The position numbers and the translations under genes are program-made. A stretch of 64,000 nt of DNA from Hyphomicrobiales bacterium (lineage in GTDB: Bacteria; Pseudomonadota; Alphaproteobacteria; Rhizobiales; Rhizobiaceae). The stretch covers positions 1 to 64,000 of the forward strand of contig UEGQ01000004.1 in the NCBI GenBank assembly GCA_900466005.1, given 5' to 3'. Of the stretch, positions 5,281 through 38,147 are shown piece after piece. Positions within the stretch are counted from its first letter, which is position 1. Each line of letters opens with the position of its first letter. The notes under the pieces were generated by a model. The model was not told the origin of the DNA. It saw only the letters and a program-made list of their open reading frames with translations, and made no database searches.

Positions 5281-5312
5281 CCCAAGCAATTTAAGCTGCG
5301 GCGTATATCCCA

Positions 5313-10650: not shown

Positions 10651-10970
10651 CGTCGTCTCCTGAAAACCGGTTGGTCGGGTTCTGGACGGCGATGGGCGCG
10701 ACCAGAAACGAGGCCAATCTGGTCGGAGCGAGGTATCCCGGATGTGTCGGCTTTCCGTCGAAAATGTACCGCAGTGTAGAACCGCGCCTATCTGCGACAG
10801 GCCGATACAATTTGCCGTCACGCCGGGTCGGCAGGTGGTGCAGATTGTATCAGACTGTATCGCAAGCGCCTGAGGCTACATCCGCATGCAATTTCCGCCT
10901 TGACGGGACACATGCGAGATACGCGCAGTCGGCTTTCTTTTCATCACGATCAATCGAGATGGAGAGAACG
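10651..10970. promoter_or_regulatory. Divergent regulatory region between dipZ and a secreted hydrolase gene
   Basis: These 320 bases contain no gene. TGTATC at 10846-10851 and again at 10856-10861 are direct repeats 10 bp apart, the spacing used by OmpR-family dimers, and an inverted copy GATACAATT starts at 10804. The same GATACAATT occurs at 14181-14189 before ohr. The nearby OmpR-type regulator is the natural candidate to bind. Confidence 0.45.
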
Positions 10971-12005: not shown

Positions 12006-12011
12006 TGTCGG

Positions 12012-12046
12012 GACTGCCGTGAAAAACTTCTTTACTCACGGCAGTC
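12012..12046 (+). terminator. Perfect 11-bp hairpin after the hydrolase gene
   Basis: GACTGCCGTGA (12012-12022) pairs completely with TCACGGCAGTC (12036-12046) around a 13-base A/T-rich loop. No T run follows, so it may be a Rho-assisted or partial terminator that lowers read-through into the response-regulator gene. Confidence 0.55.
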
Positions 12047-12094
12047 AACGCGGAAACTGATGTCGGCTGGATGCGGATGTCTGAAAGGCCACGG

Positions 12095-22658: not shown

Positions 22659-23179
22659 TTCACTCTCCGCAAGTGCAGTCCCGGTCTAGCGTCGGTGGCA
22701 GGGTTTTCCAAGATCTGTCGCAGGCGCTCTCGCCCGCGCGACAGCCGCGACATGACGGTTCCGACAGGGATCCCCAACACCTTGGCGACCTGGGTATAGG
22801 AAAGATCCTCCACCGAGACCAGCAGAAGCACGCTGCGCTGTTCCTCCGGCAATAGCTGAATCGCCGACATGACGTCGGCTTTCGTAAGTGCATCTTCCTG
22901 TGTCGGCCTGTGCGCCATAAGGCCTTCGCCGACATCCTGGATCGCGACATGCTGTCCGCGCCGGGCAACCTGTCTGAAACGGTTGATTGCAAGGTTGTGC
23001 AGGATCGTGAACACCCATGTGCGGGCGTCCTCGTTTCGCCGCCGGTGCCAATGGGAGATCACCCGCTCGAGACAGTCCTGCACGAGATCGTCAGCCGCGA
23101 CCGCGTCGTGGACAAGGCCGCGAGCATAGCGTCGCAGCGCCGGAATCATCGGTTCGACCTGAGAGAGGAGATCATCCAT
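22655..23179 (-). CDS. ECF-type RNA polymerase sigma factor
   Basis: The 174-residue protein has sigma region 2 (IPALRRYARGLVHDAVAADD, DLVQDCLERVISHWHRR, TWVFTILHNLAINRFRQ) and region 4 (LLPEEQRSVLLLVSVEDLSY, VAKVLGIPVGTVMSRLSRGR). It is the RpoE-like group common in rhizobia. It follows the YVTN protein and is co-translated with the anti-sigma factor. A GGAATAA / GTCTA promoter-like pair before the first gene of the cluster suggests self-activation. Confidence 0.9.
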   Translation of the reverse strand: MDDLLSQVEPMIPALRRYARGLVHDAVAADDLVQDCLERVISHWHRRRNEDARTWVFTILHNLAINRFRQVARRGQHVAIQDVGEGLMAHRPTQEDALTKADVMSAIQLLPEEQRSVLLLVSVEDLSYTQVAKVLGIPVGTVMSRLSRGRERLRQILENPATDARPGLHLRRVK

Positions 23180-23229
23180 GACGCACCCGCTGGAGGAGGG
23201 CCCGCCGCGCGTGCGGCGGACCGGTATGC

Positions 23230-24684
23230 CTAGTCGGCCTGAACCTGCACAACCTCGCCCGGCTGACCATCGGCCGAGGTCGCAACGACCAGATAACGCC
23301 TCTCATCCTTATGCCTGGCCTCGACGATCTGGCGGATCGGACCGACGGCATTGACGATGGCCGAACCGGCAGGACTGGTCTTGAAGGCCGACAGGCTCTG
23401 GAGCTGTCCGCTGCCGTCGGGCTCGTCCGACAGAGCCAGCATGTACGGCTTCTTGGGGTCGAGACCGGTGACAGCAGCCTGCAGGACTTGCGTCAGCCCC
23501 TGATTGAAGAGGGTCACGCTCGTCGATTGCTTCTTGTCCTTGTCTCCCCTCGCTGCAAGCTTCAGATGGGTGGTCTCACCCGCGACGCCGAGCGGCACGA
23601 GGTTTTGCATGCCGTCGCCCTCGGGTACCGCGTTCGGGACATAGGCAACTGCCTGCGGCGCCTGGCCAACCGGAATATTGGCAATGACCTTGTTGGTCAA
23701 TGTATCGATGACGGCAAACTGATCGGCATTTTCGAGCCCGACATAGATCCGCGTACCGTCACCGGAGGGCCAGATGCCATGCGGGAGGTTGCCGACAGGG
23801 ATTGTGGCGACCTGCTCGAAATCATCCGTCCGGAACACCTTCACCTCGTTCAGGCCGCCGACCGTCACATAGGCGAAGCTGCCGTTCCTGTTGATGACAA
23901 GATTGACGTGGTTGGTGATCGGCCCGGTCTCGATGGTTTTGATAGGGTTAAAAGGAGCCTGCGCGTTGAAGACCTGGACCTTGCCGATATCCTTCAGCGT
24001 GAACCAGACCTGTTTGCCGTCCGCCGAGGCCGCAATGTCCGGGCAGAAAGGGCTTTCCTGCTTCACATGGCCGACGATCTGGTGGTCGGCCACTGTCACG
24101 ACAGCGACATCCGGATTGAAGGACGAGCAGATATAGCCGTACTTTCCGTCAGGGGAGAAGATCTGCATTCCGGGACCGGGGGCGACCTTAATGCGGGTCT
24201 TCTCTTGATACGTGACGGCGTCGATCACGGAAATATAGTCCTCCCCGCGCACGGTGACCCACAGCTCCTTGCCGTCCGGAGTGTAAAATGCCTCATGCGG
24301 CGAACGGCCGACATAGGTCGTGTGCTTGACGGCATTGGTTGCCGTGTCGATGAAAGTGACCGAGTTCGACCCGATGGAAACCACGGCGAGCGTCTTGTGG
24401 TCGGGCGAGAAGCCCATGCCATGGACGAGAACCTGCCCCTTGTAGAGCGGGCTCAGATTGCCGGGCTGCGGATCGCCGAGCTTGATGACGCCGAGGAGCC
24501 TGTTGTCGACCGGATCGGATACCGACACGGTGTTGGAGAATTGCTCCGCCGCGTAGATGCGATCCTTGTGGCTGATCGGAATGTCGGGATCACTCGCCAG
24601 TCCAGGTGCCTGGCCGGCGAAAGTCGCCATGGGGGCAAGCACCGTACCTGCAAGAAGAGCAAGGATCTTCAGGTTGGTTCTCAT
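23230..24684 (-). CDS. Periplasmic YVTN beta-propeller protein
   Basis: The 484-residue protein has a signal peptide (MRTNLKILALLAGTVLAPMA, cleavage after TFA) and repeated propeller blades of the YVTN/YncE type: DPVDNRLLGVIKLGDPQ, DTATNAVKHTTYVGRSPHEA, DAVTYQEKTRIKVAPGPGMQ, FEQVATIPVGNLPHGIWPSG and DTLTNKVIANIPVGQAPQAV. The last 120 residues are a separate beta-rich domain. Function is unknown; such propellers often bind metals or partner proteins. It sits 13 bases after the DUF305 gene and 50 bases before the sigma gene, in one operon. Confidence 0.85.
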   Translation of the reverse strand: MRTNLKILALLAGTVLAPMATFAGQAPGLASDPDIPISHKDRIYAAEQFSNTVSVSDPVDNRLLGVIKLGDPQPGNLSPLYKGQVLVHGMGFSPDHKTLAVVSIGSNSVTFIDTATNAVKHTTYVGRSPHEAFYTPDGKELWVTVRGEDYISVIDAVTYQEKTRIKVAPGPGMQIFSPDGKYGYICSSFNPDVAVVTVADHQIVGHVKQESPFCPDIAASADGKQVWFTLKDIGKVQVFNAQAPFNPIKTIETGPITNHVNLVINRNGSFAYVTVGGLNEVKVFRTDDFEQVATIPVGNLPHGIWPSGDGTRIYVGLENADQFAVIDTLTNKVIANIPVGQAPQAVAYVPNAVPEGDGMQNLVPLGVAGETTHLKLAARGDKDKKQSTSVTLFNQGLTQVLQAAVTGLDPKKPYMLALSDEPDGSGQLQSLSAFKTSPAGSAIVNAVGPIRQIVEARHKDERRYLVVATSADGQPGEVVQVQAD

Positions 24685-24697
24685 GTCTTGGTCCTTT

Positions 24698-25201
24698 TCA
24701 GTTGGCAGGTTTCATTGTCATCTGCATGGCCGGGGCCTTCGATGATGTCTCTTCGTCAGAGCTCCGCATTGTCGTTGCCCCGATAGATTCGACCTGCGTC
24801 GGCACGGCATCGGAAGGGGGCAGCGGATCGCCGAGCGCCATGCGCATGGCGGCGATTTCCTGTTGCTGGGCGACGATGATCTCCTGCGCGAGGCGCTTGA
24901 GCTGCTCGTTGCTCCCGTAGCGCAAATAGGCCACGGCCATGTCGATCGCGCCCTGATGATGCGGGATCATCATTTCCGCGAAATCGCGATTGACATCGCC
25001 CGTCGGCTTGACGGCCATGGCGTTCATCATCTTCACCATGGCGGCGTCATTTTCTCGTAGAAACGGACTCTCGGCCTCCAAGCGAGATGCGGCTTCGTGA
25101 TGGCTGTGGCCCGGTGCGTCCTGGGCGAAGGCCGACACGGAAACGACGGCAAGCAGGGATGTCGCCAAGAGAAAGGGGGAACTACGAAGGAAGGCGGTCA
25201 T
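24698..25201 (-). CDS. Periplasmic DUF305 protein
   Basis: The 167-residue protein has a signal peptide (MTAFLRSSPFLLATSLLAVV, cleavage after SAFA) and a DUF305 domain: ENDAAMVKMMNAM, RDFAEMMIPHHQGAIDMA and EIIVAQQQEIAAMRMAL. The His and Met residues of this ferritin-like fold suggest metal (copper) binding, as proposed for other DUF305 proteins. AGGAGAC precedes the ATG at 25201. It heads the operon DUF305 - YVTN - ECF sigma - anti-sigma, the order expected if the sigma factor responds to metal or oxidative stress in the envelope. Confidence 0.85.
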   Translation of the reverse strand: MTAFLRSSPFLLATSLLAVVSVSAFAQDAPGHSHHEAASRLEAESPFLRENDAAMVKMMNAMAVKPTGDVNRDFAEMMIPHHQGAIDMAVAYLRYGSNEQLKRLAQEIIVAQQQEIAAMRMALGDPLPPSDAVPTQVESIGATTMRSSDEETSSKAPAMQMTMKPAN

Positions 25202-25625
25202 GCTTGTCTCCTGAATTTTCGACGAGTTCAGGAGGGTAGACAGCGTGCTTCTCAAATTATTCCGGACAGAGCCGAATTTTTCGGAGATTGACTTTCGAAG
25301 CGGGTTTCCGCCCAAGCAGGTTACGTCCTCATTGCGCAGCTCGCCCAGTTGGCGTTGTCCGCGAAGGGAGGCGTGCTGTCAGAGCTGATGGGCAGATGCA
25401 CGGGGGTCATTTTACTGAGGGAATCGAGTGCCACGGCGCGGCCCTGCCGGCGGGATAGCTATTCCGTCAAGGCAAAGCAGATTGGCGGCGCGCCGACACT
25501 CAATGATGGTTCCGCGTGGCCACTTTGCCGCGCGCAGTGCGCCCGCTCGCGCCCACTTCCTTTATACTGGCCCTGACGATGCCCACGCTTGGCGGAGGAG
25601 AGGGAGCATCTTTTGGGAGGCGGTC
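25202..25625. other. Intergenic region upstream of the DUF305 operon
   Basis: Apart from the ECF-type promoter at 25235-25265 the stretch shows no gene, strong repeat or hairpin. Confidence 0.4.
25235..25265 (-). promoter_or_regulatory. ECF-type promoter of the DUF305-sigma operon
   Basis: Read on the minus strand, CCGGAATAA (25265-25257) and GTCTACC (25241-25235) are separated by 15 bases. GGAAT-like -35 and GTCTA-like -10 elements are typical of ECF sigma factors. The -10 element is 34 bases before the DUF305 start, so the operon may be switched on by its own sigma factor. Confidence 0.55.
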
Positions 25626-26018
25626 ATGTTTTCACATTCCGACCATATCCGCGAATTCGAGAGCGTCGGCCGAGGTCTGCCTGTTAGCAGTAACGATGTC
25701 GATGTGAGATCCTGGCTGCGCTGTCTCAAGCATCACCGGCTCGACCCGGCGCAGACGCTCGCGACGTGTCGTATCGGATTCGTGGATGAGGCTCTCCCAC
25801 GAAGTTCTGGAGCCCGGAACCACGGCCAGCAGACCTTTCAACGTGAACAGGTGGGGCCCAGCGCAACGCGCAACGCCGCTCGGCGATCAGCAGACCCGAC
25901 AGAAACGGGTCCAGCCTTGGTACCTGGCATGGCGCAGCCCATCGCGCCGGAGAATGGATGGATCGCGACGGCAAAAATGAGCCGAGCGGTTAGCCGCCGT
26001 CATTCCCGCGTCATGTAA
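25626..26018 (+). pseudogene. N-terminal fragment of an AcoR-like sigma-54 activator
   Basis: An ATG at 25626, three bases after GGGAGGCGG, opens HIREFESVGRGLPVSSNDVD and VRSWLRCLKHHRLDPAQ, the characteristic start of GAF-domain AcoR-type regulators. After about 50 residues the similarity stops; the open frame continues for 80 residues of Arg/Ser/Pro-rich sequence with no match to the family, ending at 26018. The full-length protein would be about 600 residues. Either a large deletion or a recombination event removed the rest. Confidence 0.45.
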
Positions 26019-26174
26019 CCCAACTAGATGCCGGAACGTGCCACGGCGGTATGCCGGTTCATTTTGACGTCCACGAGTGCAGTTGCGGTAAAGGCGGAAT
26101 CGAGGCCGCCGGCTAACTCGATGATGCTCGGTCGTACTTCAGTGGTGCTCGCGACAGCTTGGAGCAGTGGGCTA

Positions 26175-27179
26175 GTGAAGAATCATCTGACGATTGAAGA
26201 TCTGTCCGTCTCATTCGGGCATGTTCCTATCCTGCACGGTGTCAATCTGACGATCGGCTCGGGCGATACGGTCGGTCTTGTCGGCGAGTCCGGTTCGGGC
26301 AAATCGGTGACCTGGCTTGCGGCGCTCGGCCTGCTGCCCGGCAAGGCACGGGTCACCGGTCGAGTCATGATGGATGGCAGGAACCTTGTCGGGATGACGC
26401 ATTCCGAGCTGTCCGGAATTCGCGGCGGCAGGATTGCTATGATTTTCCAAGATCCAGCAAGCGCGCTCAATCCCATGCTCACGATTCGGCGGCAGATCGG
26501 AGAGACGCTGGTACTTCATCGCGGCCTTTCGGGCCGAGAAATTGCCTCCGAGGCTCGTCGTCTGCTCGATCTGGTCGGCATTCCCGACGCAGCAAACCGG
26601 CTCAACGCTTATCCGCATGAATTCTCTGGCGGGCAGAACCAGCGCGTCATGATCGCCATGGCGCTCGCTGGAGAGCCGGACCTGCTGATAGCCGACGAGC
26701 CGACGACCGCGCTCGATGTCACCATCCAGGCGCAGATCCTTGACCTGCTGGCACAAGTACAACGCGAGACAGGCATGGGGCTGGTGCTGATTAGCCATGA
26801 CCTCGGTGTGGTGTCGCAGACCTGTGACCGAGTGGCGGTCATGTATGCAGGGCGGATTGTAGAGGAGGCTTCCGCAAGCCAACTCTTCGCGGCGCCGGCG
26901 CATCCATACACGCGTGGGCTGATCGATGCCCTGCCGGTGATCGGCGGACCGCGCCGGCGTCTGGTGGAGATAGGCGGGCAGGTGCCCGACCCTCGCAACA
27001 TGCCCCCAGGCTGCTCCTTCGCACCGCGCTGCGCCCACATGCGCTCGGAATGCAACAGATCGATCCCCGCCCTTTCCGGAATCGGGCAGGGACGCAGCAC
27101 CGCCTGCTTCCTCGACCGCAGGGTATTGCGCTCAAATACCTCCACTGCGAACCTCCGGCTGGAGAACGCCGGAGTATGA
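26175..27179 (+). CDS. Peptide/opine-type ABC importer ATPase, DppD-like
   Basis: The 334-residue protein has Walker A ([11 protein letters not shown] near residue 41), the signature [13 protein letters not shown], Walker B ([12 protein letters not shown]) and the C-terminal oligopeptide ABC tail with three cysteines ([17 protein letters not shown]) that marks the DppD/OppD group. I chose the GTG at 26175, which gives [15 protein letters not shown]; the frame is open upstream to 26028, but the extra residues match nothing. The stop overlaps the next ATPase by four bases. First gene of an operon that ends at 34686. Confidence 0.85.
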
Positions 27180-28198
27180 GCGAGCCGCTGCTGACAGTAA
27201 CGGGCCTGGCAAGGTCCTATGAAATGCATCGCGGGCTGTTCGGCGGAACCTCGACGGTACGGGCGGTGGATGATGTTTCCTTTTCCATTGCCCCGGGCGA
27301 GACACTCGGCATCGTCGGGGAATCCGGTTCCGGCAAGTCGACCACCGGACGGGTCGTGCTCGGCCTTGAGCCGCCAAGCGCTGGTGAAGTGCTGTTCGAG
27401 AGCAGGGTGCTCCCGCCGAAGGGCAGCCTGGAATGGCGGCGCCTGCGCACCCGCATGCAGATAGTATTCCAAGATCCGCTCGGCGCGCTCGACCGCCGAC
27501 TGCCGGTGGCTACCCAAGTACGCGAGCCGCTCGACATTCATGACATCGGCACGCGTGCAGAACGGGACGAACGCGTCGGGGAATTGCTCTCCTCCGTAGG
27601 CCTTTCGCGCAGCATCGGCGCACGCTATCCACACGAGCTTTCCGGCGGCCAGCGGCAACGCGCGGTACTGGCGCGCGCGTTGATCACGCGGCCGGCACTT
27701 CTCGTCTGCGACGAGCCGGTATCCGCGCTCGACGTTTCGATCCAGGCACAGGTAGTCAATCTGCTCTGCGATCTGCAGGCAGACCTCGGCGTCGCAATGC
27801 TGTTCATCAGCCATGACCTCCGGGTTGTTCGCCAGATCAGCCATCGCATTGCGGTCATGTATCTCGGCCGGATTGTCGAAGAGGGCGAAGCCGACGATCT
27901 ATTTGCCGAGCCGGTCCACCCCTATACCCGCGCCCTCGTCGCCGCCGCTCCTCTTCCAGGCAGGAAGCCGACCGGGCAGGCAATGTTGCAGGGCGAACCG
28001 CCCAATCCGGCGAACCGGCCTACCGGCTGCGTCTTCCATCCCCGTTGCGCCATGGCAGTCGATCGCTGCCGAAGCGAGGTGCCGGCGCTTGCAAGCCTCG
28101 GCAACGGGCGCCGGGCGGCTTGCCATCTTGCCGGCCAGCCGATTGACGCCATTCCGACCGGCTCGGTGGCAGTTCAGCAGGAGATATTGGCGAAATGA
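27176..28198 (+). CDS. Peptide/opine-type ABC importer ATPase, DppF-like
   Basis: The 340-residue protein has Walker A ([12 protein letters not shown] near residue 48), signature [15 protein letters not shown], Walker B ([12 protein letters not shown]) and the oligopeptide C-terminal domain [20 protein letters not shown]. The MHRGLFGG segment near the start is usual for DppF. ATGA overlaps at both ends couple it to the DppD-like and DppB-like genes. The pair of ATPases should form the asymmetrical dimer that drives import. Confidence 0.9.
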
Positions 28199-29145
28199 CC
28201 GTGGCCACCCTCAAGGCGATCGGCTTCCGCGCTTTGCGCTCCGTCGTTACCCTGCTCTTGTGCGTCACGCTGGTGTTCGTCGTCCTTCGTACGGCGGGTG
28301 ATCCGGTGGACCAGCTGCTGCCGGCGGAGACACCGCCCTCCGTTCTCGAGGAGTACCGCATCGCCTGGGGTCTCGACCGGCCGCTTTACGTTCAGTACTG
28401 GTCCTTCGTGTCGCGCGCCGTAACTGGAGATTTCGGCAAATCCTTTGCCAGTAACCTTCCGGTGCTCGACGTTGTGCTCGAAACCATGCCCAGAACCCTG
28501 CTTCTCGGCTTCTCGGCACTTCTGCTCGCCTCCTTGATCGGCCTTTCTCTTGGGATTCTGGGCGCTGTCCGGCGCGGAACCGGCGTCGACCGGGCAGCAA
28601 TGGGCGTCGCGGTGCTCGGTTATTCGATGCCGATCTTCTTTCTCGGCATCGTGCTGATCCTGCTTTTCTCGCTGCAGCTGCGACTGCTGCCATCTTCGGG
28701 CGCCTCGTCGCTCATGCATCTAATCCTGCCAACCGTCACGCTAGCCTTGCCGCTTGCCGGTCGTATCGCCCGTTTTGCGCGAACCGCGACGCTCGAGGTA
28801 ATGGGAAGGCAGTTCATCCGTACCGCTCATGCCAAGGGCGCCGGTCGTCTACGGGTGCTGCTGCAGCACGCTTTTCCGAACGCGATGGTGCCGCTCCTGA
28901 TGTTCTACGGGATCGAAATCGGGTTGATCCTTTCCGGCGCCGTGGTGGTGGAGACAATCTTTGCCTGGCCGGGGCTCGGACGACTGCTGGTCTCCTCGGT
29001 TTCCATGCGCGACCTTCCGCTAGTCCAAGGCGTTATTCTGACAATCACGCTGGTCATCGTGCTGTCCAATCTTTTCGTGGATATTCTACATGCGCTGCTC
29101 GATCCAAAGGTCAGTCTGGCGCGGACGCTCGGAGGTGCCGGATGA
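28195..29145 (+). CDS. ABC importer permease, DppB-like
   Basis: The 316-residue protein has the DppB/OppB topology: an N-terminal helix (LLLCVTLVFVVLRTAGDPVD), a conserved loop PGDP-like segment, five further helices and the EAA loop (RTAHAKGAGRLRVLLQHAFP near residues 200-225). The last segments, GAVVVETIFAWPGLGRLLV and DLPLVQGVILTITLVIVL, are typical. Overlaps of four bases with both neighbours show one operon. Confidence 0.92.
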   Translation: MTVATLKAIGFRALRSVVTLLLCVTLVFVVLRTAGDPVDQLLPAETPPSVLEEYRIAWGLDRPLYVQYWSFVSRAVTGDFGKSFASNLPVLDVVLETMPRTLLLGFSALLLASLIGLSLGILGAVRRGTGVDRAAMGVAVLGYSMPIFFLGIVLILLFSLQLRLLPSSGASSLMHLILPTVTLALPLAGRIARFARTATLEVMGRQFIRTAHAKGAGRLRVLLQHAFPNAMVPLLMFYGIEIGLILSGAVVVETIFAWPGLGRLLVSSVSMRDLPLVQGVILTITLVIVLSNLFVDILHALLDPKVSLARTLGGAG

Positions 29146-30011
29146 GCAGCGTTGAACGCAGTGAAACCAAGGCGCAGCTGGTTGCCGACCTTCCGCCGGT
29201 CATCATGCTGTGCCTGCTTTGGCTTGCCATCGTGGTGGTGGTCGCCGTTTTCGCAGATCTCTTTGCTCCGGCCCACTACACGACCCAGGATCTGTTGGCG
29301 CGTTTCCGGCCTCCGGTCTTCCTGGGCGGCGACTGGGACCATGCGCTGGGCACAGACCACCTCGGCCGCGACATTCTCAGCCGTATCATCTACGCGCTGC
29401 GCACCTCGATCCTGATCGCCGTTTTGGGCACACTGATCGGCGCGATCGGCGGAACGCTGGCGGGGTTGGCGGCAGGGCGCCTGCGCGGCCCCGTCGACCT
29501 TTCCGTGATGATGCTGACCGACGTGCAGACAGCGCTGCCGTCGCTGTTCATCGCGCTCACATTTCTCGCATTCTTCGGCAATAATATCTTTCTTTTCATC
29601 ATCCTCGTCAGCCTCGAAGGCTGGGAGCGCTATGCGCGGCTCGCCCGCGGCCAAGTGATCTCCGAGCAATCGGCCGATTATGTCAAGGCGGTGGAAGCGC
29701 TCGGCGCAGGACCGGGTCGGATAGTTTTCCGCCACCTCCTGCCGAATATCGCCGCCTCACTGGTGGTGCAGGCGACGCTCAATTTTCCGGGCACGATCCT
29801 TCTCGAGACCTCCCTTTCCTTTCTCGGCCTTGGCATCCAGCCCCCAGGCACCTCGCTGGGGCTGATGCTGGGCGAAGGGCGCGGCTATCTTCTCAATGCA
29901 TGGTGGATCGCGGTCCTGCCGGGTATCGTCATCTTCCTGACGACGCTGGCCATGAGCCTGTTCGGCGACTGGCTGCGCGACCGCCTCGACCCGACCGTGG
30001 AACGAGATTGA
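29142..30011 (+). CDS. ABC importer permease, DppC-like
   Basis: The 289-residue protein has the DppC/OppC order: an N-terminal cytoplasmic stretch, one helix (VIMLCLLWLAIVVVVAVFAD), the periplasmic HYTTQDLLARFRPP segment, LGTDHLGRDILSRIIYALRT, the EAA loop (DYVKAVEALGAGPGRIVFRH) and the C-terminal GDWLRDRLDP. All membrane segments are present. It follows the DppB-like gene with a four-base overlap. Confidence 0.92.
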   Translation: MSSVERSETKAQLVADLPPVIMLCLLWLAIVVVVAVFADLFAPAHYTTQDLLARFRPPVFLGGDWDHALGTDHLGRDILSRIIYALRTSILIAVLGTLIGAIGGTLAGLAAGRLRGPVDLSVMMLTDVQTALPSLFIALTFLAFFGNNIFLFIILVSLEGWERYARLARGQVISEQSADYVKAVEALGAGPGRIVFRHLLPNIAASLVVQATLNFPGTILLETSLSFLGLGIQPPGTSLGLMLGEGRGYLLNAWWIAVLPGIVIFLTTLAMSLFGDWLRDRLDPTVERD

Positions 30012-30018
30012 CAGAACC

Positions 30019-30801
30019 ATGAACGACATTCTCGGAAAGACCGGTTCGATCTGGTCTTCAGCGCATCCGGCCGGTCAGGTGACCTTTATAGGCGGCCATC
30101 GCGGTTCCAGCATCGGAGCAATGGAAAACACCCTCGCCGCCGTCAAACTGGCGATCGCTGAAAGCGCGGATTTCGTCGAGACCGATCTGCGGCTGACGCG
30201 GGACGGAATTCCGGTCGCTTTTCACGACGCCAACCTGGAACGCCTTCATGACGATCCGCGCTCCGTCGCCGAACTCGATCTGGCGGAACTTCGCGCTATC
30301 CATCCACAAACGATGACCATCGCCGATGTGCTGTCGGTGGCCGCCGGACACGTTTCGGTGCTGTTAGACACAAAGATCGGCGAGCCGCATGCCCTTCGCC
30401 GCAGCATTGAGGTTCTCGGGCCCTGGCTCGGCGACGGCACCGTCGCTTTCGGCACGCGTTCGACCGCAACAAGCGAACTCATCCGTCAGGAGCTTCCCGA
30501 CTGTCCGATCTTGGGCCTATATGAAAATTATGCCGACTATCCGGTATTGGCCGCAATGGGCGGGCTGTGGGCGCGGCTCTGGGAAGAGGACGCATCGGCC
30601 AGGACGATCGCCGAACTGCAGGAACTCGGACTTAAGGTGATCGTCATGGCCGGCAGGCGCAGTGCAGACGCAGTCGGCCTGATCTCGCGCGATGCGCTCG
30701 CCACACTGTTGGAATGGCGTCCCGACGCGGTGATGCTCAACGATGTGAAAACCGGCGTCGCAGTCCGCGACACCGCCATCCATCAGTCCATTTTCACTTA
30801 A
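30019..30801 (+). CDS. Glycerophosphodiester phosphodiesterase family enzyme (GDPD)
   Basis: The 260-residue protein shows the TIM-barrel GDPD signature: GGHRGSSIGAMENTLAAV (catalytic His-Arg near residue 30), VETDLRLTRDGIPVAFHDAN (metal-binding Glu and Asp, second catalytic His) and LLDTKIGEPHALRRS. Standard enzymes release glycerol 3-phosphate from deacylated lipids. The same family includes AccF, the agrocinopine phosphodiesterase of Agrobacterium, which acts on sugar phosphodiesters. Here it lies between the permease and the binding-protein gene of the importer, so its substrate is probably what the importer brings in. No signal peptide is seen, so it acts in the cytoplasm. Confidence 0.88.
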   Translation: MNDILGKTGSIWSSAHPAGQVTFIGGHRGSSIGAMENTLAAVKLAIAESADFVETDLRLTRDGIPVAFHDANLERLHDDPRSVAELDLAELRAIHPQTMTIADVLSVAAGHVSVLLDTKIGEPHALRRSIEVLGPWLGDGTVAFGTRSTATSELIRQELPDCPILGLYENYADYPVLAAMGGLWARLWEEDASARTIAELQELGLKVIVMAGRRSADAVGLISRDALATLLEWRPDAVMLNDVKTGVAVRDTAIHQSIFT

Positions 30802-30858
30802 AATTCATAGTAGGGTCACGGAACCGTCAACAGCAGCGCCTAAAGAACTGCGCTATGC

Positions 30859-30876
30859 AAACCGGTTTAAACGGTT
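30859..30876 (+). promoter_or_regulatory. Candidate operator before the binding-protein gene
   Basis: AAACCGGTTT (30859-30868) is a perfect 10-bp palindrome, followed at once by AAACGGTT (30869-30876). Sequences of this kind are typical LacI-family half-sites. They lie about 32 bases before the ATG of the solute-binding protein, so this gene could have its own control inside the operon. Confidence 0.4.
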
Positions 30877-30907
30877 GCTCCCTCTTCCCGGAAACACGGA
30901 GTGGACC

Positions 30908-32476
30908 ATGTTCGAAATCAACCGCCGTCGATTGTTGCAGGGCGCAGCCATTGCCCCGTTCGCGTTCAGTGCCATCCCCTCCTTCGCGGCCGCGGGAAAC
31001 CGCCCGGACTTCACCGTTGCCGTTGCCGGCCTGCCCCCGACGCTGGAGCCCGCACGCGAGCTTTCCAATGTCGGCACGCGCGTTACCTACTCGATCTTCG
31101 ACACGCTGATCCGTCGCGACTTCCTCGGCTCCGAGGACGGCGGCGGCTCTGAACTCAAGCCGCATCTGGCCGAATCCTGGGAACGCGTCAGCGCCTCGGA
31201 ACTCATCGTCAAGCTGCGCAAGGGCGTCAAGTTCCATAATGGTGACGAACTGACAGCGGACGACGTCGCCTATACGTTCCGCGACGGCCGCCTTTGGGGC
31301 GAAAAGGCGGAGATCCCGTCCGGCAAGCCCTATTTCGGCATCCTCGCCGGCTGCGAAGCGATTGATCCCTATACCGTGCGCTTCACGACCAAGGTTGCCG
31401 ACGTCCTTCTCGAGCAGCGCCTTGCCTCGTGGTGCGCCTGGATCGTCAACAAGCGCGCGTATGAAGAACTGGGCTTCGAGGGCTATTCGCGCACCCCGAT
31501 CGCAACCGGACCTTACAAGGTCGTCTCACACAGCCAGAACGACGCGACCGTACTTGAAGCCTTCGATGACTATTTCCTCGGCGTGCCGACGGCCAAGCGT
31601 GTTATCTTCCGCGCCGTTCCGGAACTGGCTGCGCGCGTTGCCGGCCTCGTCTCCGGCGAATTCGATCTGATCACGAATGTGCCCCCTGATCAGGTCGCCA
31701 TCATCGGTGCCTATGACGATATCGACATCCGCTCCGTCGTTCTCGCCAACAGCCATACGCTGGTATTCGACAACCACGATCCTCTCCTCGCCGACAAGCG
31801 CATCCGCCAGGCTCTCGCCAACGCCATCGACCGCCAGAAGCTGGTCGACACGCTGTGGCTCGGCAAGGCGAAGGTTCCGGCCAGCCACAACTATCCGGAA
31901 TATGGCCAGATGTTCGTCGAAGGCCGCGAGCTGCCCTACAACCCGGAAAAGGCCAAGGCGTTGCTGGCCGAAGCCGGCTACAAGGGCGAGAAGATCGTCT
32001 ATCGTACCCAGGCCTCCTACTACACCAACGCGCTCGAGGCCGCCCAGGTGCTGACCGAGATGTGGAAGGCTGTCGGCATCAATGCCGAACTGCAGGTGGT
32101 CGAAACGTCGGCCCAGATGCGCGGCGAAGGCGCCCAGATCTTCAACTGGTCGAACTCGACCCGCCTCCCCGACCCGCTCGGCGCCCTGTGGGTCGCCTGG
32201 GGTCCCGGCGGAGAAATCCAGGCCAAGAACACCTGGGCTCCGGAATCCTCGAAGGCCTTCAACGAATACGGTCAGGCACTGGAAGCCGAGACAGATCCGG
32301 CCAAGCGCAAGGAACTGTTCGTCAAGATGCTGGACGAGTGGGAACAGGAAGCCCCCGGCACGATCCTCTACCAGCCGTTCGAAGCCTATGCGATCAAGCG
32401 TTCGATCCAGTGGCGTCCGACGACCTTCTACTTCATGGACCTGCGTCCGGATAACCTGATCTTCCCGCAGGCCTGA
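30908..32476 (+). CDS. Tat-exported ABC solute-binding protein, family 5
   Basis: The 522-residue protein starts with NRRRLLQGAAIAPFAF, a twin-arginine signal, and has the family 5 (DppA/OppA-like) layout: VTYSIFDTLIRRD, HLAESWERVSASELIVKLRK, GVKFHNGDELTADDVAYTF and KRIRQALANAIDRQKLVDTL. Length and type are those of AccA, the agrocinopine-binding protein, and of dipeptide-binding proteins; by eye they cannot be told apart. It captures the ligand in the periplasm for the DppBCDF-like importer. Confidence 0.88.
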   Translation: MFEINRRRLLQGAAIAPFAFSAIPSFAAAGNRPDFTVAVAGLPPTLEPARELSNVGTRVTYSIFDTLIRRDFLGSEDGGGSELKPHLAESWERVSASELIVKLRKGVKFHNGDELTADDVAYTFRDGRLWGEKAEIPSGKPYFGILAGCEAIDPYTVRFTTKVADVLLEQRLASWCAWIVNKRAYEELGFEGYSRTPIATGPYKVVSHSQNDATVLEAFDDYFLGVPTAKRVIFRAVPELAARVAGLVSGEFDLITNVPPDQVAIIGAYDDIDIRSVVLANSHTLVFDNHDPLLADKRIRQALANAIDRQKLVDTLWLGKAKVPASHNYPEYGQMFVEGRELPYNPEKAKALLAEAGYKGEKIVYRTQASYYTNALEAAQVLTEMWKAVGINAELQVVETSAQMRGEGAQIFNWSNSTRLPDPLGALWVAWGPGGEIQAKNTWAPESSKAFNEYGQALEAETDPAKRKELFVKMLDEWEQEAPGTILYQPFEAYAIKRSIQWRPTTFYFMDLRPDNLIFPQA

Positions 32477-32484
32477 GGTAAGCA

Positions 32485-33384
32485 ATGGCCGAAAGGCTGA
32501 CCATCGTACAGGTGTCCGACACGCACCTGTCTCGCACGCACGCGTGGTTTACGGGCAACTGGCCCGTATTCCTCGACGAGATGCATGTCCTGTCGCCGGA
32601 CTTCGTCGTCAATTCGGGCGACCTGTCCTTCAATGGCCCCGATCAGGCGGACGACCTGGCCTATGCAGCCGCCTGTCACGACCAGTTGCCCTGCCGCTGG
32701 CAGGCGGTTGCTGGTAATCATGATGTCGGGGAGGCTCAGGTCGCATCACGCCTGAACCAGCATGTCAATGATGTGCGGCTCGCAGCCTGGCGTGACCACG
32801 TCGGCCCGTCATGGTGGTCGGTGGATCTCGGGGAAGGGGTACTGCGGCTGCGCCTGATCGGTCTCGACACGGCCCTGATGGGGAGCGGCCACACGGACGA
32901 AGCCGCGCAGACGGCCTTCTTCGAGACGTCACTCAACGAACGGGACGATGCCCCGGTTGTCGTGTTCACCCATATGCCACCTTTCATCGACGATCCGCAC
33001 GAAGAGCGGATAACAACACAGTGCATTCTGCCGGAGCCCCGGCACTGGTTGCTCGACCGCTGCCTTTCGGCGGGGGTGATCGCGATCGCTTCCGGTCATA
33101 TCCACCGTTATACGGTACAGGACTATCGCGGCCTGTCGATCGTGACAGCGCCGGCAACCTCGTTCGTCAATATGCCGAAAGCACCTCCGGCAGACATATC
33201 GCACATGCGCACTGGCTACCTAGCATGGCATTTTGACGCCGATGGCCTTCGCCACCAAATGGTTCGACCGCGGCTCTTCATGACCGTCGATGCCAGCAAC
33301 TGGGCGGAGACGGCTCGCACGACGACCAATCTCCCGCCGCGCCCGCTGAACGCGCCGACAACGGAACGCTTACAGAATTCATGA
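32485..33384 (+). CDS. Metallophosphoesterase, CpdA-like
   Basis: The 299-residue protein has the calcineurin-like motifs: QVSDTHLSRTH (D and H ligands, near residue 11), NSGDLSFNGP, VAGNHDVGE (Asn/His), VVVFTHMPPF and ASGHIHRY. This order is found in class III cyclic nucleotide phosphodiesterases (CpdA) and glycerophosphodiester enzymes such as GpdQ. The gene lies nine bases after the binding-protein gene. With the GDPD before and the alkaline-phosphatase-type enzyme after it, it makes a three-enzyme phosphoester set. Confidence 0.88.
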   Translation: MAERLTIVQVSDTHLSRTHAWFTGNWPVFLDEMHVLSPDFVVNSGDLSFNGPDQADDLAYAAACHDQLPCRWQAVAGNHDVGEAQVASRLNQHVNDVRLAAWRDHVGPSWWSVDLGEGVLRLRLIGLDTALMGSGHTDEAAQTAFFETSLNERDDAPVVVFTHMPPFIDDPHEERITTQCILPEPRHWLLDRCLSAGVIAIASGHIHRYTVQDYRGLSIVTAPATSFVNMPKAPPADISHMRTGYLAWHFDADGLRHQMVRPRLFMTVDASNWAETARTTTNLPPRPLNAPTTERLQNS

Positions 33385-33414
33385 AATTGCCTTCTCAGTA
33401 TAAGGATTCTACGC

Positions 33415-34686
33415 ATGGCGCATCCAATGGTTGTTACGGTAATCTGCGACGGCAACAGGCCCGATTTCATCACCGATGCCACGACACCGGCTATGGCCGC
33501 GCTCAAGCGCGCCGGCACGTGGTTCGCCAATCAGCGCGGCATCTTCCCCTCGGCCACGCGCGCCTCCTCGGCCTCGATCGCGACCGGCAGCCATCCCATT
33601 TCGCACGGCCTTCGTGGAAACTGCATGGGCCTGCCGATTCCCGGAGGCTTTGAATTCCATGACGCCGGCAAGCCGGAATTCTTCGATACCTATCGGCGGC
33701 ACTATGGCCGCATGTTGGCTCGACCGGCGTTGGCTGAACGCGTCGCGGACCTTCAAGGGGCAGTCATGTCCGCAAATGTCTCTCCGGGTGCGGCCTTCTT
33801 TCACGACAGCTATGGTCATGCCCACATGTATCACCGTGAGCTCTGTTACGGACCGGGACGCGTGCCAACGGGCGAAAAAATCGCTTCGCCTTCGGGTGGA
33901 GAGGGCGATGCGATCATGACGCGCAGGTTCATCGAAGCACTCATGGAAAAGCGACCTTCGACAGCCACTCTCTGGCTTTCGGAACCGGACGTATCGATGC
34001 ATGCCGCACCACTCGGCAGCGATGTTCATCTGAAGGCCCTCGCGGGTGCCGACAGGATGGTCGCAGATGTTGCCGAAGCCGTTGACCGACTGCGTGACGA
34101 GGGACACGACGTTCTGCTAATGGTCGGTTCAGATCACGGCCACGAGTCCGTGACGGATGCGATCCCGGTCGAGCGCCGCCTGTTCGAGGCGGGCTTCAAG
34201 AAGGAGCTCGACGGTCCCGAGATCGTCGTGGCGCCGCAGGGTTGCGCGGCCTTTATCCATTTCGGTGGAGATGCCGCTTCCCGGCGTGTCGAGGCGGCCG
34301 AGTGGCTTCGCCAACAGGATTGGGTCGAAGACGTTTTCATGGGCGAGGATCTCGCCCGGCTTGGACAGATCCCCGGTGACGATCTGATCGCGATCGACAT
34401 GGCCAAGGCTGAGGGAGCCAATATCAACCGCGTGCCCGGCCTCTCCGCCATGGCGGTCCGCTTTGACGAAGAGGTCGGAGAAATTCGCCGCCATTGCGGC
34501 ATGCATGGCGGACGGGGTCGATACGAGACGAACCCTGCGCTGTTTGCCGTCGGGCGCGGCTTTGAAGCCGGGCGGGAGATCTTCAGTGAGACGTCAATTA
34601 CCGATATCGCGCCGACGGCTCTCAGCCATCTGGGCCTCGAAGTTAGCGGCCTGGACGGTTCGGCACTCCAGGGGCGGAGTTCCTAA
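33415..34686 (+). CDS. Alkaline-phosphatase-superfamily phosphodiesterase/phosphatase
   Basis: The 423-residue protein belongs to the type I phosphodiesterase/nucleotide pyrophosphatase group. CDGNRPDFITDATTPAM supplies a metal-binding Asp near residue 10, FPSATRASSASIATG the nucleophile (Thr/Ser) and its basic neighbour, LWLSEPDVSMHAAP a middle metal site, and VGSDHGHESV plus GMHGGRGRY the second site. No signal peptide is seen. It is the last gene of the operon, 30 bases after the metallophosphoesterase. It may act on the monoester left by the other two enzymes or on a further diester. Confidence 0.85.
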   Translation: MAHPMVVTVICDGNRPDFITDATTPAMAALKRAGTWFANQRGIFPSATRASSASIATGSHPISHGLRGNCMGLPIPGGFEFHDAGKPEFFDTYRRHYGRMLARPALAERVADLQGAVMSANVSPGAAFFHDSYGHAHMYHRELCYGPGRVPTGEKIASPSGGEGDAIMTRRFIEALMEKRPSTATLWLSEPDVSMHAAPLGSDVHLKALAGADRMVADVAEAVDRLRDEGHDVLLMVGSDHGHESVTDAIPVERRLFEAGFKKELDGPEIVVAPQGCAAFIHFGGDAASRRVEAAEWLRQQDWVEDVFMGEDLARLGQIPGDDLIAIDMAKAEGANINRVPGLSAMAVRFDEEVGEIRRHCGMHGGRGRYETNPALFAVGRGFEAGREIFSETSITDIAPTALSHLGLEVSGLDGSALQGRSS

Positions 34687-34802: not shown

Positions 34803-35891
34803 CTACCGAATTCGCACTCCGCCCGCGTCGAAGAGGAAACACTTTCCGAGGGCAAGTCCCACTGTCAGCTGGTTGCAGTCCTGTTCAAACCGGAATCCTT
34901 CCTGCTCGACGATGATCCGTTCATCGGCCGAAAGGTCGGCGTAGATGTAGCTCGTGTTGCCGAGATGCTCGGCCACGTCGACATCGATCGTCAGGTCGGC
35001 GTCGCCTTCGCCGGCGGGAAGGAAATGTTCCGGCCGGATACCGAGGCTCACCTCCTCGCCGACGGCAACCTCGTTCGAGCGGACGGGAACGTCGAACCGC
35101 ACGTCGGGCCGGCTTGCAAGCGCAACCGTGACATGGCCCTCACCGACTGCGGCGACGCGGCCTTTCAGGAAGTTCATCCGCGGGGAGCCGATGAAGCCGG
35201 CGACGAAGGTATTGGCGGGGTCATCGTAGAGTTCGAGCGGCGCTCCCACCTGTTCGACGACGCCAGCCCGCAGGACGACGATCTTGTCTGCGAGCGTCAT
35301 CGCTTCCACCTGGTCGTGGGTGACGTAGATGATGGTCGACTTCAGTGCCTTGTGCAGCTTCGCAATCTCGACGCGCATGTGCACGCGGAGTTCCGCGTCG
35401 AGGTTCGAGAGCGGCTCGTCGAAGAGGAAGACGTCCGGATGGCGCACGATCGCGCGACCGATGGCGACGCGCTGGCGCTGGCCGCCGGAAAGTGCCTTCG
35501 GCTTTCTGTCCATCAAGGGGCCGAGCTCGAGGATGCGGGCCGCCTCGTCGACGCGCCGGTCGATCTCCTGCCTTTCCATGCCCGCGAATTTCAGGGCAAA
35601 GCCCATGTTCTCGCGCACCGTCATGTGCGGATAGAGCGCGTAGGACTGGAAGACCATGGCGATGCCGCGTTTCGACGGATCGACGTCGTTCATCACGGTG
35701 CCGCCGATGGTGAGCTCGCCGGAGGTGATGTCTTCGAGCCCGGCGATCATGCGCAGCAATGTCGACTTGCCGCAGCCGGACGGGCCGACGAAGACGACGA
35801 ACTCGCCCGCGCCGATCGTCAGGTCGACGCCCTTGATGATTTCCAGGGCGCCGAAACGCTTGCGTATGTCGGTGAGACGAACATCGGCCAT
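34803..35891 (-). CDS. ugpC: Sugar ABC importer ATPase, UgpC/MalK type
   Basis: The 362-residue protein has Walker A ([13 protein letters not shown] near residue 38), signature ([15 protein letters not shown]), Walker B ([12 protein letters not shown]) and a C-terminal TOBE/MalK regulatory domain from about residue 240. This is the CUT1 class for sugars. It lies 9 bases after the GH2 gene and is the last gene of the operon that begins at the binding-protein gene (41237). The ugpC symbol marks the family; the substrate need not be glycerol phosphate. Confidence 0.88.
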   Translation of the reverse strand: MADVRLTDIRKRFGALEIIKGVDLTIGAGEFVVFVGPSGCGKSTLLRMIAGLEDITSGELTIGGTVMNDVDPSKRGIAMVFQSYALYPHMTVRENMGFALKFAGMERQEIDRRVDEAARILELGPLMDRKPKALSGGQRQRVAIGRAIVRHPDVFLFDEPLSNLDAELRVHMRVEIAKLHKALKSTIIYVTHDQVEAMTLADKIVVLRAGVVEQVGAPLELYDDPANTFVAGFIGSPRMNFLKGRVAAVGEGHVTVALASRPDVRFDVPVRSNEVAVGEEVSLGIRPEHFLPAGEGDADLTIDVDVAEHLGNTSYIYADLSADERIIVEQEGFRFEQDCNQLTVGLALGKCFLFDAGGVRIR

Positions 35892-35900
35892 GGCGGGACC

Positions 35901-38147
35901 TCAGCTGACGGTGAAGGTGACGGATTGAGGTGCGAAGCGGCGGCTCGCGACAACAAGTTCGATGCTGCCCTGCTCGTCGCCGGCCTCCATCCAGAATCCG
36001 GTCGCGCCACCCTTCAACGTATGGTCCGCGGGGCCGATGATACGGCCCGGACCCGAAAGGGCAAGCGAGACCGGCTCCTCGAAATAGGGAAGCAGGTTGC
36101 CACACTGGTCAAGGGCGCGGACGACGACGCGCACCGCATCCTTTTCACCGGCGCGCAGCGCTGTGTCGTCCGCCTTGACCTCCAGGGTCGCGGGAACCGG
36201 ATCGGCAGGCAGAACCAGCGTCTTGACCACCTTCCCGTCGAGATAGCCGGTGATCGTTCCCTCGCGCCAGACGCGGCCCCAGGATCCGAATTCCTCCTGC
36301 GTGACGGTCCGCAGGTCGAAGACGACCGGCGGGTGGGGAAGGTGTGGGTAGTTTTCCCTGTCCGGATAGACGCGCTTTGCCGGCCATTCGCCGAACTTGA
36401 CGTCGACATAGTCGCAATTGGTGAGGATGATCAGCGGCAGCACGCCGCCGATATTGCGTTCGCCGCGGGCCCAGAAGGTGACCGGCTGCAGGACGACGTC
36501 CTTTGCCGGGTCGCCCTGGCTTGCATAGGCATAGGCCGCCAGTTTCGGGATGCGGTACATGTCGAGGACGCCGTGATAGCAGATGCGGTCGCCCGAGCCG
36601 AAATCCTTGTGGGTGTTGTAGTCGAACATGCACCAGCCGGTGGACCCGGAGATGTTGCCGTCACCCGCGGCTGCGTTGAGTACCAGCAGATGGCGCGTCA
36701 CGTGCTCGGCCTGGCGTTGCTCCTGATCGAAGCGCTTGGTCGGGTACATGTGGCCGTTATATTCGGTGATCATGTAGGGGATCGGACGGGTGATGCCGGT
36801 CGTCTCCACCCTGTCCCGCAGAACGACCCGCCCGCGGTTGTTGCCGGGTAGCTCCTCGTTGCCGAGGATGAAGTCGTTCATCGTGTAGACGTCTTCGAGC
36901 AGCTCCGAATTGGTGATGAAGCGCACGCCGCCGGTCTGGCGCGTCGGGTCGAGTTCGCGGGCGAGCCGGTTCGTTTCGGCGTAGAAATCGTGATTGTCCT
37001 GGCTCTCGTTGATGCGAACGCCCCAGATGATGATCGAGGGATGGTTCCAGTCGCGCTCGATCATGCGGCGGACATTCTCGATCGACTCCTGCTGCCAGGC
37101 CTTGCCGCCGATATGCTGCCAACCGGGGATTTCCTCGAAGACGAGGAGGCCGATCTCGTCACAGCGATCGAGGAACCACTTCGACTGGGGATAGTGCGAG
37201 GTGCGCACGATGTTGCAGGCAAGCTCGTGTTTCAGGATGTCGGCATCCTTCTCCTGGGCGCGCCGGCCCATGGCATAGCCCGTGTGCGGCCAGGATTGAT
37301 GGCGGTTGAGCCCGCGCAGCTTCAGCGGCTTGTCGTTCAGCAGGAAGCCGTCCGGCGTGAAGCGGGCGGTACGGAAGCCGAAGCGCTGTGCGAACGTGTC
37401 CTTGCCGTGCTCTGTCTCGAGCGACAGGGAGAGCGTGTAGAGCGTCGGATTGTCGATGTCCCAGAGCGCGATGCCGGCGAGATCGGAGAAGGTGAGGAGC
37501 GCTTCTTTGCCGTCCAGTGCAACAGACGCAGACGCGATCTCGGTTCCGCTCCTGTCGGCGATGGTCGCGGCAATGGCGCCGGAGAAGGACCGATCTTCCG
37601 GATTGGCGAGGAAGACGCGCGCGGTGACGCTCTTCTTGTCCGCGAGCGCATCCGGCGTCTCGATCTTGACGTTCCCGATCGCGACGGGGCTTGCGACCTT
37701 CAGCCAGACGTCGCGATAGATGCCGGCATAGCAGAGATAGTCGATCTGGCCGCCGAAGGGCGGGATTTCCGGGTTCTCCGAACCATCGACCTTGACGGTG
37801 ATGAGGTTGTCACCCTGCACGAGGTGGGAGGTGAGCCGTGCCTCGAAGGGTGTGTAGCCGTCCTTGTGGGCGACGATCTCGCGCCCGTTCAGGTAGACCA
37901 CGCTGTCGGCCATGGCGGCATCGAAGACCAGGGAGACCTCACGGCCCTCGAATTCCGGCCGCCAGGCGAGGACCTTCTGGTAGGTGAACGGCTTCTGGTA
38001 TTCGGTTTCGTCGAAGTAGTTGTAGGGGAGTTCGACGGCGCTGTGCGGCAGGCGGACGGTCTCGCCCTCCTGCAGGGCGGAGACGCGCGCCGGCTCGAAG
38101 CCATGGCGAAAGAGCCAGTTGCCGTTGAAGTTCTCGATGATGCGCAT
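35901..38147 (-). CDS. Glycoside hydrolase family 2 enzyme
   Basis: The 748-residue protein has the GH2 layout: an N-terminal sugar-binding jelly roll (1-165), an immunoglobulin-like domain, the TIM barrel from about residue 270 and C-terminal beta domains. GFLLNDKPLKLRGLNRHQSW starts the barrel. The acid/base Glu lies in IIWGVRINESQDNHDFY, and the nucleophile Glu in PYMITEYNGHMYPT. Beta-galactosidase or beta-glucuronidase chemistry is likely. No signal peptide is present, so it cleaves an imported oligosaccharide in the cytoplasm. It sits inside the sugar ABC operon. Confidence 0.88.
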   Translation of the reverse strand: MRIIENFNGNWLFRHGFEPARVSALQEGETVRLPHSAVELPYNYFDETEYQKPFTYQKVLAWRPEFEGREVSLVFDAAMADSVVYLNGREIVAHKDGYTPFEARLTSHLVQGDNLITVKVDGSENPEIPPFGGQIDYLCYAGIYRDVWLKVASPVAIGNVKIETPDALADKKSVTARVFLANPEDRSFSGAIAATIADRSGTEIASASVALDGKEALLTFSDLAGIALWDIDNPTLYTLSLSLETEHGKDTFAQRFGFRTARFTPDGFLLNDKPLKLRGLNRHQSWPHTGYAMGRRAQEKDADILKHELACNIVRTSHYPQSKWFLDRCDEIGLLVFEEIPGWQHIGGKAWQQESIENVRRMIERDWNHPSIIIWGVRINESQDNHDFYAETNRLARELDPTRQTGGVRFITNSELLEDVYTMNDFILGNEELPGNNRGRVVLRDRVETTGITRPIPYMITEYNGHMYPTKRFDQEQRQAEHVTRHLLVLNAAAGDGNISGSTGWCMFDYNTHKDFGSGDRICYHGVLDMYRIPKLAAYAYASQGDPAKDVVLQPVTFWARGERNIGGVLPLIILTNCDYVDVKFGEWPAKRVYPDRENYPHLPHPPVVFDLRTVTQEEFGSWGRVWREGTITGYLDGKVVKTLVLPADPVPATLEVKADDTALRAGEKDAVRVVVRALDQCGNLLPYFEEPVSLALSGPGRIIGPADHTLKGGATGFWMEAGDEQGSIELVVASRRFAPQSVTFTVS

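Follow-up and report, generated by a model that had tools for sequence, protein, structure and literature searches.

What is a peptide-type ATP-binding cassette (ABC) importer doing in one operon with three phosphoesterases? The question is raised by a locus on contig UEGQ01000004.1 of a Hyphomicrobiales bacterium from the Rhizobiaceae (assembly GCA_900466005.1), of which we analysed positions 1 to 64,000, hereafter the window. Eight co-directional genes on the + strand, all open and tightly spaced, fill positions 26175-34686 and encode two ATPases, two permeases, a GDPD-family enzyme, a family 5 solute-binding protein with a twin-arginine translocation (Tat)-type signal, a metallophosphoesterase and an alkaline-phosphatase-superfamily (AP) enzyme. 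The original prediction had named this composition, which Pfam and NCBIfam matches bear out, and had the coordinates right; it spoke of nine products where we find eight genes. We propose, with a probability of about 0.7, that this is an organophosphorus scavenging operon, which would import an intact sugar or polyol phosphodiester under phosphate starvation and cleave it in the cytosol with the three phosphoesterases. The proposal starts from what can be read directly in the DNA: the genes, their operon-like spacing, their homologies, the conserved catalytic and ligand-anchoring residues, and the recurrence of such importers together with phosphoesterases.

In the scheme that we envisage, low phosphate would switch the importer on through PhoB, or through PhnF in some relatives. 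The Tat-exported AccA-family protein would capture the intact phosphodiester in the periplasm, recognizing a phosphate beside a free hydroxyl of a sugar or polyol ring, and the ABC importer would bring it in whole. The GDPD, NPP-like and GpdQ-like enzymes would then open the diester, with cytosolic location and order of cleavage both presumed, and the NPP-like or the GpdQ-like enzyme would probably strip the phosphate from the leftover monoester, yielding inorganic phosphate and a usable sugar or alcohol.

An AccA-type binding protein

The binding protein (30908-32476, + strand; PF00496, 261 bits; twin-arginine signal NRRRLLQG) belongs to the AccA family. Compared with all solved structures, it matches AccA chains best, at 379-396 bits, and the next non-AccA protein reaches 123 bits; an AccA match at 395 bits spans residues 47-530, the mature protein. 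Newer AccA structures (8c6u, 8ch1 and others) are among the Protein Data Bank (PDB) matches, and a search of the open-access literature found no paper on them. In the passages of El Sahili et al. (PMC4526662) that deal with the AccA pocket, the O1 hydroxyl of the ligand is held by N54, N284, S419 and E510, the phosphate is held by N54, S419, Y375 and Y376, and W178 and W423 form a gate. The window's protein keeps N54, Y145, W178, N284, Y375, Y376 and S419. Elsewhere its pocket has Q372, R423, A430, A434 and Y510; the sugar-side residues W423, T430, E434 and E510 of AccA are thus replaced by R, A, A and Y, and half of the gate is kept (W178 is present, W423 has become R).

The same division runs through the family. 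Our alignment to the AccA chain took in family proteins from 80 genome-contig loci, from four plasmid loci and from the window, 97 proteins once C58 AccA and one duplicate fragment of the window's protein were left out. The anchors are close to invariant (N54 in 95/96, N284 in 93/97, Y375 and Y376 in 97/97 each, S419 in 96/97). Variation is found on the sugar-facing side, with Y or F at 510 in 87/97, R at 423 in 55, and changes also at 430 and 434. Since E510 occurs in just 3 of the 97 relatives, it marks agrocinopine AccA and not the family as a whole. The window's genome encodes 17 other family 5 proteins; the five-residue anchor set is present in none of the 16 that could be aligned, the remaining one having been missed by the family hidden Markov model (HMM) and left out of the residue comparison, with its neighbourhood still scanned (L122; L numbers denote the loci compared). 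Judged by these residues, the core that recognizes a phosphate plus an adjacent hydroxyl is retained, and the remaining pocket is unlike that of agrocinopine AccA. Agrocinopine itself is an unlikely ligand, because the sugar-side W423, T430, E434 and E510 are not kept. Glycerophosphoinositol, with a ring phosphate beside a free OH, was considered as a ligand candidate; nothing in the window bears on it.

A di- or oligopeptide importer that is co-transcribed by happenstance with phosphoesterases would account for the generic Dpp/Opp homology of the ATPases and permeases, but it leaves unexplained an AccA-type binding protein and a recurrent linkage to phosphoesterases of different folds that is seen at 0/17 control loci (below). 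We give it practically no weight, and plain peptide import was rejected on the structure matches and residues that make the binding protein AccA-type.

Relation to agrocinopine operons

The nearest solved relative being AccA, with a GDPD gene in the operon, one might suppose that the locus is a true agrocinopine (crown-gall opine) catabolic operon. It shares with the Agrobacterium acc operon (accABCDEFG) an AccA-family binding protein, a Dpp-type importer, a GDPD-family enzyme and the phosphate anchors. It differs in gene order, in two extra phosphoesterases, in the four changed sugar-side residues and in a GDPD that is remote from AccF; no match to the K84 AccR (DeoR-type) or AccG (IMPase-type) was found within the window. 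Plasmid pAtK84b carries the canonical acc set and also a second, acc-like operon (Arad_14137-14145, CP000630.1), whose binding protein is 55.9% identical to the window's over 92% of its length and which resembles the window's operon in importer type and in a gdpD that is nearer than AccF. Unlike the window's operon, it has a divergent histidine phosphatase (PF00300) and a PF04198 sugar-binding regulator, and no metallophosphoesterase or AP enzyme is annotated in it. In a quick tree the window's protein also stands on a separate branch from C58 AccA, and it has close relatives in Chelatococcus, Bosea, Methylobacterium and on a Rhodobacteraceae chromosome. Taken with the pocket changes, this makes a true agrocinopine operon very improbable; we rejected it on the pocket changes and the lack of accR and accG matches in the window.

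The original prediction had drawn the parallel to acc in several respects. Its central idea, acc-like uptake of an intact phosphodiester followed by intracellular cleavage, is supported by the closeness of the binding protein to AccA among solved structures and by the kept phosphate and O1 anchors. It had listed another opine among the possible substrates, but agrocinopine or another crown-gall opine is not indicated: the sugar-side residues differ and close relatives include a chromosomal copy (L004, CP023454.1), and we know of no crown-gall link for the bacteria that carry close relatives. A GDPD is indeed in the operon as in acc, but it is nearer to the gdpD of the second pAtK84b operon (61 bits over 193 residues, 31% identical) than to AccF (a short match, 47-52 bits over 58-73 residues, with the conserved residue set present). 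The suggestion that two phosphoesterases replace the final phosphatase holds insofar as no AccG match is found in the window and two other enzymes stand in the operon. The NPP and GpdQ/Rv0805 families are best known for cleaving phosphodiesters, and therefore the two extra enzymes are not merely a swapped final phosphatase.

Some further features of these plasmids were observed in passing. The second pAtK84b operon lies at 17948-25890 of L082 (CP000630.1), where its PF00300 and PF04198 genes are annotated 'mannopine synthesis-like' and 'SmoC-like'. At 27337-31914 of L082, two other pAtK84b 'AccA' proteins are just 32-33% identical to C58 AccA over aligned columns, and their pocket differs. Downstream of accG, pAtK84b has a gene with the annotation 'myo-inositol catabolism protein', and the AccF, AccG and AccR proteins from a Ti plasmid share 77-80% identity with their pAtK84b counterparts.

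Three phosphoesterases in one operon

About 20 genes of the phosphoesterase families GDPD, PF01663, PF00149 and PF00884 were detected in the 5.0 Mb genome: 18 distinct places from Pfam model searches and two metallophosphoesterases that the PF00149 search missed. That whole-genome PF00149 search is incomplete, as is plain from its missing the window's own metallophosphoesterase. With three such genes lying within 4.7 kb here (Poisson probability ~1e-6) and the eight-gene set recurring in five other records, the cluster is not due to chance.

The GDPD-family phosphodiesterase (30019-30801, + strand; PF03009, 83 bits) has H27, R28, E36, E54, D56, H69 and K119, which we take to be the catalytic positions and which are invariant in 33/33 operon-linked GDPDs. 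The calcineurin-like metallophosphoesterase (32485-33384, + strand; PF00149, 41 bits) is of the Rv0805/GpdQ/CpdA type. It shares all of the metal motifs of these enzymes, DxH, GD, GNH, H and GHxH (D12, H14, D46, N78, H79, H163, H205 and H207), which are invariant in its relatives, and differs from them in its distance by profile: Rv0805 scores 44 bits and the phosphohydrolase 2dxl, presumably GpdQ, 42 bits.

The AP enzyme (33415-34686, + strand) exceeds the PF01663 cut-off at 87 bits. D12, T48, N69, D192, H196, D240, H241 and H364 are invariant in 31/31 operon-linked members, which include the Bosea type at just ~28% identity, and H196 is present in at least 90% of 36 aligned rows. These D, T, N and H positions align with NPPs, where we take them to be the metal ligands and the nucleophile. 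By profile search the enzyme scores 55 bits with ENPP4, 48 with ENPP1, 44 with the bacterial NPP 2gsn and 31 with phosphonoacetate hydrolase; with a best score of only 55 bits, it differs from the NPPs as a separate bacterial subfamily. It is NPP-like and probably a phosphodiesterase. Identity as a phosphonoacetate hydrolase (PhnA) was rejected on the 31 bits, against 55 for ENPP4 and 44 for the bacterial NPP. NCBIfam offered no family for either the metallophosphoesterase or the AP enzyme at a limit of 1e-5, and their alignments drew on 29 and 35, respectively, of 120 listed homologues each.

No signal peptide is apparent by eye on the GDPD, the metallophosphoesterase or the AP enzyme, and on this ground we place all three in the cytosol, where they would act after import. 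The classical substrates of GDPD, GpdQ/Rv0805-like and NPP-like enzymes are glycerophosphodiesters, cyclic nucleotides and nucleotides, and the profile matches to GpdQ/Rv0805 and NPP would suit ordinary scavenging of glycerophosphodiesters or (cyclic) nucleotides through a Dpp-type importer. Glycerophosphodiesters, however, are served by UgpB-type importers. Moreover, in the relevant passages of PMC4526662 the phosphate and O1 anchors of AccA are described for pyranose-2-phosphates, and we consider ordinary scavenging of this kind improbable.

Recurrence across genomes

Beyond the window, five records carry all eight genes: Rhizobium sp. RU36D (L001), a pair of Rhizobiales isolates (L002 and L003), the Rhodobacteraceae chromosome mentioned above (L004) and a megaplasmid of Allorhizobium (L084). 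The binding proteins of these loci form one group with the window's (SH-aLRT 94) in a tree that was quick and made without bootstrap, with long branches flagged, among them C58 AccA and L079. A Neorhizobium locus with GDPD alone (L005) comes next, followed by 16 Bosea/Chelatococcus-type loci and, on a separate long branch, C58 AccA. The Bosea/Chelatococcus-type loci have a GDPD and, in 15/16 (L019 being truncated by its contig), a convergent ATPase-ATPase-AP unit. Close relatives include proteins from Chelatococcus, Bosea and Methylobacterium besides the Rhodobacteraceae chromosomal copy, and AccA-family relatives as a whole were found in Alphaproteobacteria and Firmicutes. Within the window's own family the operon is sporadic, given that of 297 sampled genomes just one, the window's own, was found to have a near homologue (E <=1e-60) of the AP enzyme.

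At 69/85 family loci, the window included, the 8 kb on either side of the binding-protein gene contain at least one of five kinds of phosphoesterase (GDPD at 43, AP at 32, metallophosphoesterase at 21, PehA at 9, AccG at 3); 80 of these loci are the best 80 of a longer match list and not a random draw. For a second sample, 397 genomes of the window's order were searched. A family member at E <=1e-100 was present in 29, one of them the window's own, and a phosphoesterase lies beside the binding-protein gene in 15 of the 25 new loci; duplicates between the two samples were removed solely by exact 500-base match. The same models found a phosphoesterase near 0/17 of the other family 5 genes of the window's genome, some of whose neighbourhoods are shorter than 8 kb per side owing to contig ends or separately fetched neighbours (L111, L113, L115, L119/L120). 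Fisher's p, computed with 16 controls where the full number is 17, is 4e-10 for the first set and 5e-5 for the second.

Operon layout and possible phosphate control

The operon opens with the two importer ATPases, one of DppD/OppD type (26175-27179, + strand; PF00005, 94 bits; PF08352 (oligo_HPY), 76 bits) and one of DppF type (27176-28198, + strand; PF00005; PF08352, 65 bits; NF008453, 363 bits, below its cut-off of 408). Two permeases follow, of DppB/NikB type (28195-29145, + strand; PF00528, 133 bits) and DppC/NikC type (29142-30011, + strand; PF00528, 93 bits). Three 4-base overlaps of the ATGA type join these first four genes, and the later junctions are gaps of 7, 106, 8 and 30 bases. 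The start of the first ATPase gene is uncertain, at GTG 26175 or at an in-frame ATG at 26028 or 26121.

A PhoB-box-like site, CCGTCAT-N4-GCGTCAT, lies at 25997-26014 on the + strand, ending 13 bases before the earliest of these ATGs. It has 11 of 14 consensus bases (3 mismatches), and 0.5% of shuffles of the upstream region equal it. A Pho-box-like site with 2 mismatches lies upstream of the first ATPase gene in the Neorhizobium locus, and in the sister clade 15/16 loci have one (<=3 mismatches) 32-47 bases upstream of the first permease gene. The acc operon is activated by phosphate limitation according to a statement in PMC4086400 that cites Kim et al. 2008, and the annotated accR of pAtK84b is preceded by a perfect Pho box that ends 65 bases from it. 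No sigma-70-like promoter was found upstream of the first gene (1 occurs elsewhere in the region, 2.0 expected). The 106-base gap before the binding-protein gene, the sole sizeable one in the operon, contains the near-palindrome AACCGGTTTAAACGGTT (30860-30876, no strand assigned), a candidate for a possible operator. The original prediction had given the binding-protein gene a regulatory site of its own; in favour of this, the near-palindrome is unique in the 64 kb at <=3 mismatches (0.06 expected), and against it, no full copy was seen by eye in the upstream stretches of nine relatives.

The upstream regions of relatives bring in the most interesting alternative ligand, a phosphonate ester. 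Were the importer to take a phosphonate monoester, for example a sugar methylphosphonate ester, the esterases would free the phosphonate and carbon-phosphorus (C-P) lyase would break it. Directly upstream of the window-type operon of Rhizobium sp. RU36D, phnC, phnD, phnE, phnE and phn_thr occupy 1015-5321, and these genes and the operon look like one transcription unit. In L002 and L003 the operon directly follows PhnF, in L079 a gene of that cluster lies downstream, and the window's genome has PhnJ with surrounding phn genes. Other branches have PehA, a phosphonate monoester hydrolase, as partner (below), and PEH is described in a passage of PMC5649143 as acting on phosphonate monoesters and on phosphodiesters. 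Yet phn genes above 60 bits stand beside few loci (L001, L002, L003 and L079, and more distant phn genes at L029 and L166), with weaker PhnF-like genes at L170, L173 and L180. Neither phn genes nor PhnF are upstream in L004 and L084, and no degraded PhnF gene was found in 22001-27000 of the window (the best match, E 0.026, is antisense). The phn genes of the window's genome are on a different contig (C25), and linkage to C-P lyase can reflect merely a shared phosphorus-starvation regulon. On balance, import of a phosphonate monoester seems unlikely, if worth keeping in mind, and import of a phosphodiester under phosphate control remains the reading that we prefer.

Several observations weigh against that reading. 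Five of the seven window-clade operons (L001, L002, L003, L004 and L084) have no Pho-box-like site better than shuffles. The homology of the metallophosphoesterase is weak, at 42-44 bits, and compatible with more than one reaction. A second AccA-family gene of the same genome (L123, contig C14, 1-2070; 410 bits), truncated by the contig start and followed by a metallophosphoesterase gene, encodes L and not N at position 284; Y375, Y376 and S419 are kept, and position 54 is not covered. None of the five enzyme kinds is found at 16/85 and 10/25 family loci, some of which are cut by contig ends. Finally, enzymes were counted with HMMs trained on AccA-family loci, a bias towards finds there. A Pfam search of the genome was added for this reason, and none of its GDPD, PF01663, PF00149 and PF00884 places falls within 8 kb of the 17 control genes, the PF00149 list being incomplete as noted.

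PehA and the wider importer family

At nine of the 85 first-set loci (L053, L056, L057, L058, L061, L065, L068, L029 and L030) the partner enzyme falls in the PehA cluster (PDB 2vqr, 2w8s); of these, L053 alone was checked against NF045661 and the PDB. Because these nine had been found by way of the binding protein, we also searched in reverse, starting from PehA. Among 397 genomes of the order, 2 have a PehA match above the cut-off, and the plasmid matches at E <=1e-100 comprise 22 records, of which 20 are from Rhizobium; identity is only ~40% in two of the 22. Of the 24 places found, four were examined (L185-L188: both genomes, Pseudoroseomonas pL11-C and pRL9 of Rhizobium johnstonii (leguminosarum) 3841), and in all four an AccA-family binding-protein gene (744-762 bits) is directly next to PehA and its product carries N54, N284, Y375, Y376 and S419. 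On pRL9 (L185, NC_008379.1) the place is 9007-12219, with pehA and the adjacent binding-protein gene being RL_RS26995 and RL_RS26990, and this PehA is the gene of the crystallised enzyme: its product differs from 2vqr (pRL90232 in the PDB) at one of 514 residues, C being A in the chain. The PehA loci resemble the window in having an AP-superfamily phosphoesterase immediately beside an AccA-family importer. They differ in that PehA is of the sulfatase type and lies upstream of the binding protein, whereas the window's enzyme is NPP-type (PF01663) and lies two genes downstream. We know of no established natural substrate for PehA/phosphonate monoester hydrolase, and its adjacency to the importer offers a handle on one.

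Agrocinopine AccA is, as far as sequence comparison can tell, a specialised branch of a wider, little-studied importer family. A bolder generalization, drawn from gene neighbourhoods and residues and on which we are evenly divided, is that AccA-type proteins define a wide and unrecognised class of ABC importers for intact phosphodiesters, perhaps also phosphonate monoesters, in phosphorus nutrition. The recognition core, a phosphate beside a free ring hydroxyl, would be fixed in this class, and the cleaving enzyme would be swapped among at least five kinds: AccF/GDPD, NPP, GpdQ, PehA/phosphonate monoester hydrolase and AccG (IMPase), joined at one locus by a histidine phosphatase. Among the top-ranked open-access matches we found no paper that ties AccA-type importers to NPP-, GpdQ- or PehA-type enzymes. 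If true, such a class would give PehA/phosphonate monoester hydrolase, a promiscuous model enzyme, its missing physiological partner and hence its substrate class, and a family that takes in intact phosphodiesters would account for the place of action of several orphan phosphoesterases. The agrocinopine system, commonly seen as a peculiarity of crown gall, would take its place within a general environmental family, and the importer class would have, as one of its effects, the sensitivity of crown-gall strains to agrocin 84.

Neighbouring genes

Xylose-isomerase-like TIM-barrel genes lie near 22 of the 85 AccA-family loci (for example L023, L027, L040, L051, L060, L077 and L078). NCBIfam gave no family for two of these neighbours at a limit of 1e-10, and PF01261 is present in both TIM-barrel genes tested; it is possible that they process the released sugar. 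Downstream of the window's operon, 34803-38147 on the minus strand forms a separate unit, whose genes appear to encode an ABC ATPase of the sugar type and a protein resembling glycoside hydrolase family 2.

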